Shown here piece by piece: positions 31,218-36,118 of a stretch of DNA of 36,118 bases. The notes under the pieces are model-generated. The model made no database searches and was not told the origin of the DNA. It worked only from the letters and a program-made list of their open reading frames with translations. This DNA is from Armatimonadota bacterium. Its GTDB lineage: Bacteria > Bacteroidota > Ignavibacteria > OLB7. Location: contig JADZEY010000072.1 of the NCBI GenBank assembly GCA_020850315.1, forward strand, positions 1-36,118. The letters are read 5' to 3'. Each line of letters starts with the position of its first letter. Position 1 is the stretch's first letter. Made by a program: the position numbers and the translations under genes.

Positions 31218-31775
31218 ATGCATGACGCCCCTCATATTGACGGGCCAAGCGATGAAGAACTGATGGAGCAATTCAAAGGCGGCAGTGAACAAGCCTTTGT
31301 CGCGCTCTATAAACGATATAACCGTCGCGTGTACGCGTACTGCCTGAAGATGCTTGGCCAACGCGAAGCTGCCGAAGACCTTTTCCAAGAAGTCTTCGTT
31401 CGGGTAACCCGTAAACGTGACCATTTCCAAAGTGGGAATTTTTCCGCTTGGCTGTTCGCCATCGCTCGGAACCTTTGCCTTAACGCCATCCGGGACAGAG
31501 TACACCACGTCCCGATTGATGACGTACACGAAAGCGCAATGGCGTTCCAGCCGCCCGACGAATACGACGAAAACAGCGAAATCTTAAAAAAAGCTATCGA
31601 AAAATTACCAAACGAGCTTCGCGAAGCTCTGGTGCTGCGGGTCTATAATGGTTTCAGCTATAACGAAATCTCGGAGATCACTAACACCAAATTAGCAACA
31701 GTAAAAGTGCGAATCTTCCGGGCAAAGCAACGGCTGTATGATATTCTGGCACCATACTTTCTTGATAAAGTATAA
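31218..31775 (+). CDS. ECF-type RNA polymerase sigma factor (second)
   Basis: The 185-residue product has region 2 at about 25-95 ('QAFVALYKRYNRRVYAYC', 'EDLFQEVFVRVTR', 'WLFAIARNLCLNAIRD'). Region 4 is at about 125-178 ('LPNELREALVLRVYNGFSYNE', then 'TKLATVKVRIFRAKQRL'). Its sequence and its partner gene resemble the pair at 3574-4910, so the two are probably paralogues with separate regulons. It is followed 12 nt later by the membrane partner. ATG 31218 is the first in-frame start, with no strong Shine-Dalgarno sequence. Confidence 0.93.
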   Translation: MHDAPHIDGPSDEELMEQFKGGSEQAFVALYKRYNRRVYAYCLKMLGQREAAEDLFQEVFVRVTRKRDHFQSGNFSAWLFAIARNLCLNAIRDRVHHVPIDDVHESAMAFQPPDEYDENSEILKKAIEKLPNELREALVLRVYNGFSYNEISEITNTKLATVKVRIFRAKQRLYDILAPYFLDKV

Positions 31776-31787
31776 AAGGTATAAAAC

Positions 31788-32408
31788 ATGACGACACAAG
31801 AACTTCTCATCGGATATTTTGAAGGGGGCTTGACCCCAGAGGAATCTCTCCATTTGGAGACGATGCTCTCCGGCTCGGCAGAGCTTCGGGCGCAGTTCAA
31901 TCAGCATCAACAGATTCATTCCATGATGCAGCGCGAAGCCGAGGAAACCAAGCCATCGGAAACGTTGGACGAAGCAACAATCGGCGCGGCGCTTGGCCTG
32001 CTTGGCCAAACCGTTGGCGGGGCCAGCATTGCCTTCTGGAGCGGAACAAAAATTGCAGCAACGATTGGAACAGTAGTGGTTGGTGGCGCGGTGACATGGT
32101 TTGCAGTCACCCAAAATCCTGAACCGCCGCAAGCCCCGTCGGCAACCACTACCCAGCCAGCCCCAACCATCCAAACCGCTCCAGTGCCCCAGTTGCCGGA
32201 TCCGGCGGTTGCGCCGGTGACGGAGCAGGCCAGTTCAAGCGGCAGCACGAAACAAACTGCCCCAGCAAGTAGCTCGAAAGAATCGAATACGTTCCGATCA
32301 AAGGGGGAAAAAGGAGGTAGCGAAGCAGGAGATCATAGAGGCTTTAACCTTGAAGGAGAAACACCAGTGCCAATAGATCAAGAGATCAAGTTTAAGCCTA
32401 ACAGGTAA
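31788..32408 (+). CDS. single-span membrane partner of second ECF sigma factor (putative anti-sigma)
   Basis: The 206-residue product has the same plan as the product of 4185-4910. A short N-terminal helical domain ('LLIGYFEGGLTPEESLHLE', 'ELRAQFNQHQQIH') leads to a Gly-rich approach and one membrane segment (about 88-107). A Pro/Thr/Gln/Ser-rich extracytoplasmic tail ends with charged residues. There is no zinc-binding HxxxCxxC. The anti-sigma or signal-transducing role is inferred from the conserved sigma/membrane-protein arrangement. A terminator follows 18 nt after the stop, making this a compact two-gene operon. Confidence 0.85.
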   Translation: MTTQELLIGYFEGGLTPEESLHLETMLSGSAELRAQFNQHQQIHSMMQREAEETKPSETLDEATIGAALGLLGQTVGGASIAFWSGTKIAATIGTVVVGGAVTWFAVTQNPEPPQAPSATTTQPAPTIQTAPVPQLPDPAVAPVTEQASSSGSTKQTAPASSSKESNTFRSKGEKGGSEAGDHRGFNLEGETPVPIDQEIKFKPNR

Positions 32409-32456: not shown

Positions 32457-32775
32457 ATTTCCCCACCACCCCCGTAGTGTCGAATTTCGCGGCCATGGAG
32501 AGAATTCTTCCTTCCCCAAGCACGGGGTGACGATTCTTCTTTACCTTGCCGCCCCAGTTCATCGTTGGGTGAAGGCTCAGTGGGGGAGAGATAGTTTGCA
32601 GGCAGTAATTTTTTTTGCGTGCATTCTGTCTGGTTTTGGCAAGTTTATACGTTATAGGGTAGTGACGGGATTAGCATATAATTCTTCTTGAACAGGAATG
32701 CCCTCTCCTAACCACCCAAGAAGCCGTGCCACGCCACGGGATCCCGTCTAATTGTTTGATTTCAGGAGTTGTCTG
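32457..32775. other. intergenic region before third sigma factor
   Basis: No gene is seen. Base composition begins to fall here relative to the left part of the window. A TATAAT-like sequence at about 32676 lacks a matching -35, so I do not call a promoter. Confidence 0.4.
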
Positions 32776-33348
32776 ATGTCCTTCTCATCCCAGAATGGAT
32801 ACGCGGGCGATGCCCGTATCCCGATAGAGTTCGTGTCGCTTCTTCAGGATTGTTTGGGTTCTGCCAGAAGCCCCATCCACCAATGGCTGAAACAGTGCTT
32901 CCAAGAGGAAGATGACCGGAAAGAAGTGTTGGCCATGGCGTTAGAAAGGGCATGGAAGCACTTCCGAAGCCATTACCCTGAAGCACGATTGCAAAGCAAA
33001 GAAGGGTTTGAACCGTGGCTGATGGTTATTGTACAGCATTGTGCACGCGACTACTTGAGGCAGCAAAAAGCGAAGGGAACGAGAAGGAAAGGGAGGGAAA
33101 AATTTGACGAAGCAACTCACACGGGAGCGGGAGCGGGAGCGGATATATCAGTTGAACAGGGGATAGATATAGCAATAATGCTTGATTCTTTATCCGAGAA
33201 GGATCGGGAGGTTCTAAGGCTGCATCTTCAAGGCTTCTCATGCAAAGAGATAGCCGATAGAATCGGCAGTACCGAGGGAGCGGTGCAGCGGCGAGTAAGC
33301 CGCGCTAAAGCAGCATTACGCGGCCGTTTCCCAAATCGGGAAGGCTAA
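32776..33348 (+). CDS. ECF-like RNA polymerase sigma factor (third)
   Basis: The 190-residue product has a divergent region 2 (about 45-105; 'ALERAWKHFRSHYPEARL', 'WLMVIVQHCARDYLRQQK'). A short Gly/Ala linker is encoded by a hexamer microsatellite near 33121, and region 4 is clear (135-185; 'LDSLSEKDREVLRLHLQG', 'CKEIADRIGSTEGAVQRRVS'). The start at 32776 is preferred because CAGGAG lies seven bases upstream; an in-frame ATG at 32752 lacks a Shine-Dalgarno sequence. Unlike the other two sigma genes it has no membrane partner next to it. A secreted Cys-rich protein and a thioredoxin-like protein follow. Confidence 0.88.
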   Translation: MSFSSQNGYAGDARIPIEFVSLLQDCLGSARSPIHQWLKQCFQEEDDRKEVLAMALERAWKHFRSHYPEARLQSKEGFEPWLMVIVQHCARDYLRQQKAKGTRRKGREKFDEATHTGAGAGADISVEQGIDIAIMLDSLSEKDREVLRLHLQGFSCKEIADRIGSTEGAVQRRVSRAKAALRGRFPNREG

Positions 33349-33695
33349 GGCTGATACACACGGAAGAACTGGGATTGCGAAACTATAGCCATATAGATTT
33401 GCTTCGCCCCGACAGAAGGAGGGTAAACAATGCCTTCGTCTCCAATTTGTGCTCCGATGCAATCGGGGTAAACAGGAATGACAGCGAAAAAAGCACAAAC
33501 TGAGCAGTTCTGAATAGACCAACAGAGCGTGCTGAACAACAGGTCAGTAACTGTACATGCGTTATGTTGGTGGTGGTGAATCTTGATGCCTTCCTACAGC
33601 ATTGAAGATGCCCCCCTACCACCTGTAGGAAATGGACGTGCATGGCTGAGATAGAACAGGTAGTAACCTATCAAAAATTCTAAGGAGTAAAACAG
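33349..33695. other. 347-nt leader/intergenic region before the Cys-rich protein gene
   Basis: No protein gene is supported; three overlapping minus-strand frames lack start signals and family features. TAGATTTG (33394-33401) fits TAnnTTTG but is about 300 nt from the next gene. AGGAG precedes the next ATG at the proper distance. Confidence 0.4.
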
Positions 33696-34190
33696 ATGAG
33701 CAAGCTTCAGAGAATGGCGTTCTTAATAGCCATTGCTATATTTGCTACAAATATAGCCTATAGCCAAACTTCTTCAACTGTGTTTGCCACTATGGTAAAC
33801 GGATCGCCACAGCTCTCCATTAGCCAATCAACCTTGATTGCGGCTTTTGAGGACGAGTTTAATGATGGCTCAGTAATTTCTACGGTGACAATCGAAAATT
33901 ACGCGTCTTCTGGCAATCCTGCAAAATATTGGTTGATTGCAACAGGTAAGAAAAATGACACCTTATCAAGAACAATGGCTGTGGCATTGGATCTTAGCAA
34001 TGGAGAATTTCGAACTACCGATCCTAGACATAGTTGTAAAGGTAATTGGTGTAGTGAATGCGCGTTTAAACGAGTAGATGGTGGAGGAATTGTAGGGTGT
34101 AAATGTGAGGACTGGATTAGTCTTGGATGCGATCACACTGTTACTACCGGAGCAAGACGAGGTGGATACGGAGTTGGTACTCTACCATAA
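33696..34190 (+). CDS. secreted protein with C-terminal six-cysteine/histidine module
   Basis: The 164-residue product starts with a signal peptide (about 1-23, ending AYS before Gln24). A moderately polar domain (25-110) follows, then a compact Cys-rich end with Cys114, Cys119, Cys122, Cys135, Cys137, Cys145 and His147 (Cx4CxxCx12CxCx7CxH). Six cysteines could form three disulfides, or with His147 bind metal. I do not recognise the family. A good Shine-Dalgarno sequence (AGGAG, 8 nt before ATG) supports expression. The DNA is AT-rich compared with the left of the window. The neighbouring thioredoxin-fold protein could be its folding or redox partner, which is inference from proximity. Confidence 0.75.
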   Translation: MSKLQRMAFLIAIAIFATNIAYSQTSSTVFATMVNGSPQLSISQSTLIAAFEDEFNDGSVISTVTIENYASSGNPAKYWLIATGKKNDTLSRTMAVALDLSNGEFRTTDPRHSCKGNWCSECAFKRVDGGGIVGCKCEDWISLGCDHTVTTGARRGGYGVGTLP

Positions 34191-34198
34191 CTTTAAAG

Positions 34199-34245
34199 CC
34201 CTTTCTGTTTTTTAACTCTGTACAGTGAATAATAAACAGAAAGGG
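34199..34245 (+). terminator. inverted repeat after Cys-rich protein gene
   Basis: CCCTTTCTGTTT (34199-34210) and AAACAGAAAGGG (34234-34245) are perfect 12-bp arms with a 23-nt loop, then TGTTT. It is a likely terminator, although the loop is long. Confidence 0.6.
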
Positions 34246-34260
34246 TGTTTCTATTCACTG

Positions 34261-34380
34261 ACCTTACGCACACGCCGTCTTACTCCCCCCCCTTCCGTCA
34301 TTGCGAGGAGTCTTCGACGAAGCAATCTCGCGGGTTTTTCGGTGATCATCGGACGCACTGCTAATGGTATTGCGTAAGGT
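34261..34380. mobile_element. 120-bp MITE-like element with terminal inverted repeats
   Basis: ACCTTACGCA (34261-34270) and TGCGTAAGGT (34371-34380) are exact 10-bp terminal inverted repeats; one base further the match becomes imperfect. The interior is GC-richer than the flanks and contains the palindromic core GTCTTCGACGAAGCAATC, similar to widely scattered bacterial intergenic repeats, plus an 8-C run. No target-site duplication is evident. It has no coding capacity and may be a non-autonomous element. Confidence 0.6.
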
Positions 34381-34420
34381 TAGTTATTCATAATGCACTA
34401 AACAAATAAAGGGTTATACA

Positions 34421-35644
34421 ATGCTGCATACTTATTGGCTAAGTCAAAAAATAAAGGTAGTTATTCTAATTACTATGATGCTTTTTCTTGTATACAATAT
34501 TGCTCATTCACAATCCAATAATTCTATGAAGAAAGATAGTCTAAACGAAATGCTTTATCATGCACGTAAAGCATTTACAAATGTGTACACCGCAAAGTAT
34601 TATGTACATCTCTATCAAAGCAAAGTAGAAGGTGGAGCTATTATTCGTAGCGGAAATGTGTTTTTATCTCGAGATACTGTAGATAATCCGTTGGGATGGG
34701 ATATTCGTTTTGAAGCTGATAATGGCATGGTTTACTGCTATACAAGAAAAGAAATAAAAATTTTAGATCCAAACTCTCGTAAAATTATTATTGTTGACGC
34801 TTCACAGGGAGCTTCTGAAATGATTAAGGGAAATGCAATCTCAGATTTGTTTTTTAATGTTCTAACTGATACGACTGCATGGCAAAGAATTCTTAATTTA
34901 TCAAATAATATTTCATTTGAAAAAGATCAATACATTGATGATGCTATTTGCAAAATAGTGCAGGTTGAATATCCTGATACCGAATTATTTAGTCAATTAA
35001 AAACATATTTATTTATAAATCCAAATAATTTTTTTACTTATCAAAAAATAAATCATTCGATATTTAACAATATTCAATTAATTGATACTTTGTCGTTTTC
35101 TAAAATAGAAATAAATAAACCATTAGATTCTTCTATATTTACTATAGAAAAGCCAGATGGTTATTCGGAGTACAGGATGTCAAAGACAATATCAAAAGAA
35201 AAATCGTTGCCTCTTGGGTCTCAATCTCCTAAGTGGTCGTTACTTAATCAGAAAGGAGGATATATTTCTAGTGAAAATTTAAAAGGGAAAATATTATTAC
35301 TAGACTTTTGGTATTCAACATGTGGACCTTGTTTAGAGTTCATGCCAATAATACAAAGAGTTCATGAGCGATACCAAAATCAAGGAGTAGTAGTTATTGG
35401 TATGAATAGTAAAGAGAAAAAAACTGCTAATGCAATTAATTTTATGAGAAAAAATAATTATACATATACCCTTGCGCTTCAAGCTGACAGTGTTGCTATC
35501 GCATTTTGTGTGGATTCATACCCTACTACATATATAATAGATGACGAAGGGAAAATAGTATATAAAGAAATTGGTTTTAATAATCAAGCAGAAGAAACAA
35601 TTAATAAGACGATCAATGCTATCTTAAATAAGAATAAGGAATAA
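34421..35644 (+). CDS. exported two-domain protein: LolA-like N-terminal region plus TlpA-like thioredoxin domain
   Basis: The 407-residue product has a signal peptide or anchor (about 10-30, ending AHS before Gln31). Residues about 40-245 suggest a LolA/outer-membrane-lipoprotein-sorting-like beta-sheet fold ('WDIRFEADNGMVYCYTRKEI'). Residues about 262-400 form a TlpA/ResA-type thioredoxin domain with the redox pair Cys301-Cys304 in 'WYSTCGPC' and the cis-proline loop 'SYPTTYIID'. It should act as a disulfide oxidoreductase in the periplasm. The gene is strongly AT-rich. AAAGGG lies about 8 nt before the ATG. It is the natural candidate partner for the upstream Cys-rich secreted protein. Confidence 0.82.
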   Translation: MLHTYWLSQKIKVVILITMMLFLVYNIAHSQSNNSMKKDSLNEMLYHARKAFTNVYTAKYYVHLYQSKVEGGAIIRSGNVFLSRDTVDNPLGWDIRFEADNGMVYCYTRKEIKILDPNSRKIIIVDASQGASEMIKGNAISDLFFNVLTDTTAWQRILNLSNNISFEKDQYIDDAICKIVQVEYPDTELFSQLKTYLFINPNNFFTYQKINHSIFNNIQLIDTLSFSKIEINKPLDSSIFTIEKPDGYSEYRMSKTISKEKSLPLGSQSPKWSLLNQKGGYISSENLKGKILLLDFWYSTCGPCLEFMPIIQRVHERYQNQGVVVIGMNSKEKKTANAINFMRKNNYTYTLALQADSVAIAFCVDSYPTTYIIDDEGKIVYKEIGFNNQAEETINKTINAILNKNKE

Positions 35645-35664
35645 TCAATATGTAGATTTTACAA

Positions 35665-36118
35665 ATGAAAAGTAATAAATACATTCTATATAAGTTTATC
35701 TCAATACTTTTTATGCTTCTATTATGTTCATGTATTGATAGACAATTATTATTTGCTCAAGTTACTTCATTACCTATATCCTCCACTACTGGCACCACCC
35801 TAAACTTCTCCCTTGTCCAATCAGCATCATGGAACATTGCACAAGGGGATGAACTCCTGCTTTCAGCGCGCATCGCAACCCGTAGCTCCTATCAGTGGAC
35901 GATTGCACCATGCCGGCTTCGCACCAACCTTACTCTTACACTCGGCGGTAGCTACCGCGATGACTCTATCCCAGAAAACTCCTTCCGCCTCAGCGAGAAT
36001 GAAGCCTTCGCCGAAGGAACCTTGACCTTCCCCATCGGCTGGAGGGTTGATCCCTACTTCAGTGCCAACTTCCGCACACCACTGACCGAATCCTTTGCCA
36101 TTGCCGGACCACAACGAA
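35665..36118 (+). CDS. exported outer-membrane-type protein, partial (DUF3078-like), 3' end outside window
   Basis: An open frame of 151 codons starts at ATG 35665 and is still open at the last base. Residues 1-31 are an AT-rich signal peptide ('FISILFMLLLCSCIDRQ') with either a lipobox-like LCSC or a signal-peptidase site after FAQ. From about residue 45 the sequence shows barrel-like strands ('LNFSLVQSASWNIAQGDEL', 'NLTLTLGGSYRDDSIPENS'), resembling the DUF3078 pattern of Bacteroidota outer-membrane proteins; that family assignment is tentative. DNA composition changes sharply from AT-rich to GC-rich at about 35785, inside the gene. Confidence 0.7.
   Translation, partial: MKSNKYILYKFISILFMLLLCSCIDRQLLFAQVTSLPISSTTGTTLNFSLVQSASWNIAQGDELLLSARIATRSSYQWTIAPCRLRTNLTLTLGGSYRDDSIPENSFRLSENEAFAEGTLTFPIGWRVDPYFSANFRTPLTESFAIAGPQR

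Follow-up and report, generated by a model that had tools for sequence, protein, structure and literature searches.

What does an exported thioredoxin-domain protein do when its gene stands directly behind that of a small, secreted, cysteine-rich protein? The question is raised by the right end of the 36,118-nucleotide stretch of DNA analysed here (contig JADZEY010000072.1, positions 1 to 36,118, assembly GCA_020850315.1, GTDB lineage Bacteroidota; Ignavibacteria; OLB7; hereafter the window), where four genes follow one another on the plus strand: an extracytoplasmic function (ECF)-type sigma factor (32776-33348), an exported protein with six cysteines (33696-34190), a thioredoxin of LolA/TlpA-like type (34421-35644) and, cut off by the window's end, the first part of a DUF3078-type protein. 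An original prediction made from the sequence alone had described this order and read it as a sigma-controlled envelope module in which the thioredoxin processes the Cys-rich protein; the four genes and their single strand are as it described. On comparing genomes, we conclude that the conserved unit is the pair of thioredoxin and candidate substrate, the sigma cassette being a local, exchangeable form of it, and we consider it probable that the thioredoxin acts on its Cys-rich neighbour. To our knowledge, dedicated enzyme–substrate pairs for disulfide chemistry exist but are few.

The evidence that carries this reading is the adjacency of the two genes across genomes. Family searches, which used a two-member profile and then 14- and 16-member profiles, and neighbour searches spanned at most 395 genomes each, and the Cys-rich family was matched in 18 of 391 genomes of the class at E<=1e-5, one match (G453) being false. 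At 14 of the 20 class loci with known downstream sequence, in five families, the next gene on the same strand encodes an exported CXXC thioredoxin, and this adjacency supports the partnership originally proposed. In the discovery set the pair was present at 11 of the 13 loci whose downstream sequence could be read, while later searches added seven more in-class loci, with the pair present in three (G392, G561:C70 and G680; labels give genome and contig, G000 being the window's genome and G004 a sister species of the same genus) and absent from four (G638, G398, G431 and G457). Because G000 holds 12 redoxin-type matches in 4.24 Mb, chance adjacency should fall well under 1% per locus. Of the 12 pairs measured, 11 have an intergenic gap of between -58 and +127 bp, and in four the genes overlap. 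The window's gap of 230 bp is exceptional and holds two further elements, as the following features of its right end show.

32602-32675, plus strand: promoter-like element of about 70 bp upstream of sigma cassettes, present at six of the seven sigma paralogues of the genus
32776-33348, plus strand: ECF-type sigma factor without an anti-sigma factor, with a GGGAGC hexanucleotide repeat in its linker
33537-33660, plus strand: 124-bp imperfect-hairpin leader element directly 5' of the Cys-rich gene
33696-34190, plus strand: small exported Cys-rich protein with an N-domain of about 75 residues and a six-cysteine tail, founder of the family
34200-34244, no strand assigned: terminator-like inverted repeat with 15-nt arms (93%), 3' of the Cys-rich gene
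34257-34384, no strand assigned: insertion resembling a miniature inverted-repeat transposable element, with 14-nt terminal inverted repeats, between the Cys-rich and thioredoxin genes
34421-35644, plus strand: exported LolA-like domain fused to a TlpA/ResA-type thioredoxin (C301-G-P-C304, cis-Pro P368)
35665-36118, plus strand: 5' part of a DUF3078-type outer-membrane protein gene, which ends at base 608 of contig C39

The Cys-rich protein has 164 residues, begins with a signal-type helix and carries its six cysteines (C114, C119, C122, C135, C137 and C145) between residues 114 and 145, as anticipated for a secreted protein with clustered cysteines. It has no significant match in Pfam or NCBIfam and belongs to an undescribed family that lacks a model in either database. 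The AlphaFold model (predicted local distance difference test, pLDDT, 82) comprises an N-terminal helix, a small alpha/beta domain and a disordered end, and the N-domain of the family is predicted to be folded (pLDDT about 90). It found no solved-structure match in the PDB (best E 0.34), and a known-fold identity was dropped on that result. Across the family the N-domain is conserved and the Cys tail diverges fast. Pfam scans of all 14 family members at E<=1 returned no NVEALA domain, and the window's protein has no match to the type IX secretion sorting domain PF18962. One member, in G638 (L170 6328-7170), bears a C-terminal extension that by eye resembles such a sorting domain and has no Pfam match, and in another class lipoprotein relatives of the family (L137, L138 and L139) adjoin an M48-type peptidase gene.

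The third protein belongs to the TlpA/ResA superfamily on the evidence of its sequence, its fold and its catalytic residues, as the original prediction of a LolA-like/TlpA-like oxidoreductase had implied. It contains an AhpC-TSA domain (E 6e-17) with a CGPC motif, and its model matches both LolA structures and ResA/DsbE thioredoxins, the best PDB entry being Chlorobium DsbE (3gl3, E 4e-12), with ResA also matched. Its N-domain is predicted to adopt a LolA fold (E in the 1e-10 range, TM-score by target length 0.54-0.75, with 0.75 for 4mxt) at a moderate pLDDT of 74, and no LolA family was found in Pfam at E<=1. The partner thioredoxins at other loci have differing N-terminal domains and share 12-18% identity with that of the window, yet F296, C301, C304 and the cis-Pro P368 (window numbering), and these residues alone, are invariant in the 13 compared. 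The fourth gene appears DUF3078-like, a membership that is clear for its relatives only: four of nine match PF11276, weakly to clearly (best E 2e-7), and the window fragment gives no significant match. With this limit, the outer-membrane-type protein start of the original prediction can be read as a fragment of a DUF3078-type barrel cut by the contig end.

A second line of evidence concerns the extreme C-terminus of the Cys-rich protein. In twelve copies the last residues before the stop codon are [HYE][LI]GxF followed by an aromatic or polar residue, while the preceding 40 residues are poorly alignable. All 12 signature-bearing copies have a thioredoxin, as against 2 of 13 signature-free copies (those of the window and G392; Fisher 2e-5, a value that overstates the evidence because the copies are related to one another). 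Counted with one entry per family and state, the association is 5:0 versus 2:7 (p 0.02). Moreover, family f10 has all three tail and thioredoxin states (G561/G680, G392 and G598), which argues against simple descent as the source of the association. We tentatively entertain the idea, which we would not yet favour, that the signature is a short docking tag steering a fast-diverging, Cys-rich exported protein to its own adjacent thioredoxin. If so, the enzyme would be a tag-addressed, dedicated redox chaperone tolerating free variation of the Cys region ahead of the tag.

Several observations weigh against a dedicated pair. Within the class the neighbourhood is conserved and the two exported genes do not occur independently in most genomes, the two points on which the original prediction could have failed. 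Yet the enzyme is missing at 6 of the 20 loci in the class and at all five beyond it (0/5 with a thioredoxin neighbour), so the Cys-rich protein can exist without a thioredoxin next door, and the most widespread type of Cys tail is untied to one. Matching evolutionary distances of the two proteins, considered as a further argument, were not significant, the correlation of the distance matrices being weak (Mantel r 0.24, p 0.08). The window's own copy has GGYGVGTLP at its end, which is a degenerate signature at best, and G392 combines a thioredoxin with the absence of any signature. Finally, the G195:C30 thioredoxin, which was left out of the 13 compared for invariance, is frame-shifted at its CXXC motif in the assembly, which costs it that motif, and is followed by a second thioredoxin with CKPC.

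Weighing these points, we propose a two-gene exported module consisting of a small, Sec-exported Cys-rich protein and a thioredoxin-domain protein encoded beside it, the latter of which would act in the periplasm on the cysteines of the tail, whose disulfides it would form, correct or open. The extreme C-terminus of many copies probably acts as a docking or sorting tag for the partner; the operon would often be completed by a DUF3078-type outer-membrane protein, and in the window's genus the module appears to have been placed behind a dedicated ECF-type sigma factor. The Cys-rich family, for which neither Pfam nor NCBIfam has a model, is found in several families of a class that has been little studied, and the enzyme may recognise its partner by the C-terminal signature.

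How the thioredoxin would act is the point on which the best-surviving alternative turns. It could be a reductant that keeps the CxGxxCxxCxF...GCxC...CxH tail reduced for metal binding, as TlpA does for copper-site proteins, which would in part be a special case of the thioredoxin acting on its neighbour. The fold matches point to thioredoxins of the ResA/DsbE/TlpA type, several of the tails have CxH or NH at their end, and the studied ResA, CcmG/DsbE and TlpA are mostly reductants. TlpA itself has been described as a multifunctional oxidoreductase (PMC4460558), and work cited in that paper has it reducing ScoI. Set against this, the Cys pattern varies widely among tails, two window-type tails (G450 and G438) are short of two of the six cysteines, and no metal transporter or metalloenzyme was noticed beside the pair. 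The metal handling raised in the original prediction found no direct evidence, and we regard reductive metal loading as rather unlikely.

Alternatively, the two genes could be neighbours merely by way of a larger envelope operon, with the DUF3078-type protein and sometimes the sigma factor, in which the thioredoxin serves other proteins. The barrel does follow the pair at six loci (G000, G004, two in G195, G561 and G392), G392 even repeating the order of Cys-rich protein, thioredoxin, barrel and sigma factor; LolA-TlpA proteins occur in G001:C58 without a Cys-rich neighbour, and in the genus the sigma paralogues stand beside small exported proteins of other kinds that have propellers as partners. 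This explanation is nevertheless unlikely, given that 8 of the 14 pairs stand as two genes alone with neither barrel nor sigma factor (G147, two in G235, two in G413, G407, G561:C70 and G680), that the genes overlap in four measured pairs and that the tail signature goes with the thioredoxin. A secreted toxin or bacteriocin-like peptide served by an accessory disulfide enzyme, on the pattern of sunA with bdbA/bdbB in the sublancin operon, would fit a conserved N-domain with a fast-diverging Cys tail, the AT-rich partner genes and cassette turnover between sister species, but is very unlikely in view of a signal sequence of Sec type and not a double-glycine leader, a predicted folded N-domain, the lack of matches in phage or plasmid collections, and neighbourhoods in which no SunT-kind peptidase/ATP-binding cassette exporter or immunity-like gene was noticed (open reading frames inspected by eye, no profile search).

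Returning to the module as proposed, its link to the sigma factor proved local. The window's sigma factor is of ECF type, region 4 (E 5e-12) and a weakly matched region 2 (E 0.005) being its only sigma regions, and it scores 59.7 bits to TIGR02937 against a cut-off of 42.9. A neighbouring cognate anti-sigma factor is typical of ECF sigma factors without being obligatory; none is visible at any of the seven paralogous loci, in agreement with the 'partnerless' label of the original prediction, and although an anti-sigma-like gene does lie at 31788-32408, it stands behind another ECF gene (31218-31775). A profile search recovered seven strong paralogues, three in G000 and four in the sister species, before a sharp drop to generic ECF factors, and no strong match to the subfamily beyond the window's genus among 395 genomes of the phylum, a sample that does not include the sister genome. 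The upstream element accompanies six of the seven paralogues and occurs nowhere else in about 1.06 Mb scanned with nhmmer. Every paralogue with enough sequence is followed by a small exported protein, and the partners differ: a LolA-thioredoxin in the window, a YCF48-type propeller in G004:C75, propeller lipoproteins elsewhere and none in G004:C100. Among the 20 class loci, an ECF-type sigma gene lies beside the Cys-rich family at four (the window, G195:C30, G392 and G598), only weakly above what the many ECF genes per genome would lead one to expect. Since this adjacency is weak and the subfamily seen only in the genus, the sigma factor is best read as a genus-level addition that may control the pair here; a conserved operon including the sigma factor was rejected because the paralogues' partners differ and strong matches are restricted to the genus.

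Within the genus, these loci depict sigma-driven cassettes whose small exported protein and AT-rich partner gene (for a thioredoxin or a propeller) are exchanged among loci and from one species to the other. Such turnover between the sister species is seen at the window site and between mutL and gcvH/accC, where they carry different sigma cassettes (G004:C100, L069, versus G000:C51, L070). The linker between sigma regions 2 and 4 (33119-33147) is encoded by three GGGAGC units in the window; other sigma genes (L068, L069 and L071) have 8 and 17 such units, the 17 in the sister species, and, in L071, 11 units of CACAGG, hexanucleotide repeats by which linker length can change without a frameshift. 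Contig G000:C81 ends 350 bases past its sigma gene with signs of an insertion element, and an insertion sequence likely interrupts the stretch between that gene and the Cys-rich gene on C91, to judge from the contig ends. The end of L068 and the start of L032 have matching inverted 24-base ends.

Directly 5' of the window's Cys-rich gene, the 124-bp leader recurs in four copies among the five genomes of the order included in the comparison, each just upstream of a cassette Cys-rich gene or at such a site (G000:C81). At C75 and C81 the sequence before it looks, by eye, like the decayed 3' end of another Cys-rich gene, a sign that cassettes may recombine there. The leader has no Rfam match, and a structured regulatory RNA is unsupported: the window copy does not stand out from shuffled sequences (z 0.23), and an alignment with one double change and several broken pairs offers covariation too weak for such a call.

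The AT-rich DNA noted in the original prediction is confirmed by a fall in GC content from 0.55-0.59 to 0.33-0.36 within the window. The thioredoxin gene alone is at 0.29 against flanks of 0.56 (0.29 against 0.55 in G004) and is AT-richer than its flanks at all measured loci, from slightly to strongly; propeller genes behave likewise, and in the sister genome the barrel gene is close to the composition of the genome as a whole. The AT-richness of the partner genes could reflect either recent acquisition or relaxed constraint. A phage or plasmid origin was rejected, as searches of phage and plasmid collections gave no match to the module. The window is the whole of contig C72, one of 138 in the 4.24-Mb assembly, and therefore stops at an assembly break. 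Its final 168 bases overlap the first 168 of contig C39 at 97%, and the sequences on either side of this join fall at a single place in the sister genome, the window's left flank lying beside the truA side of C39. There, nothing separates the anti-sigma gene from truA, and the roughly 13 kb between the end of the anti-sigma gene and truA is therefore an extra block here.

Other small-protein cassettes were seen alongside. L070 (5785-7884) and L071 (8224-10399) encode a small exported protein of about 100 residues, a propeller-like lipoprotein and a small protein with a CXXC motif. Between the two species this last protein is only 37% identical overall, yet its final 17 residues (EYFGDIQSAFKRILKIK) are the same in both; profile comparison did not support its being a thioredoxin. 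In L068, L030 and L074, a LuxR-type regulator precedes a different Cys-rich exported protein of about 205 residues (33-38% identity, three genomes), which may represent another cassette type.

The open-access literature on NVEALA, DUF3078 and Kapabacteria sigma factors contained nothing on this module, and its likeness to known systems is in each case partial. Bacteroidota NVEALA peptides occur with six-bladed propeller lipoproteins, a lead that recalls a small, exported, Cys-containing protein beside a propeller or thioredoxin, although no protein tested here has a Pfam match to the NVEALA or propeller families. With LolA/LolB carriers the third protein shares the predicted fold of its N-domain, but it lacks a Pfam LolA sequence match and is fused to a thioredoxin. 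Like TlpA, ResA and CcmG (DsbE), it is an exported thioredoxin domain with CXXC and cis-Pro; unlike them, it carries a large additional domain at its N-terminus, LolA-like in the window and of other types at other loci, and its neighbour is one particular Cys-rich gene in place of cytochrome c or CuA biogenesis genes, no cytochrome or copper-site biogenesis genes having been noticed beside the module. Closest in logic are systems with a thiol-disulfide enzyme dedicated to one exported substrate: the sublancin operon, which encodes BdbB together with its substrate (PMC6391423), and DsbL/DsbI, the dedicated oxidase for arylsulfate sulfotransferase according to work cited in PMC4460558. The substrate family, exporter and enzyme family all differ here, and no glycosyltransferase, SunT or DsbB-like partner was seen. 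Such pairs are known in either redox direction, as sublancin/BdbB and TlpA/ScoI show, the latter as reported in work cited in PMC4460558, and the thioredoxin of the window could form or open the disulfides of its neighbour.

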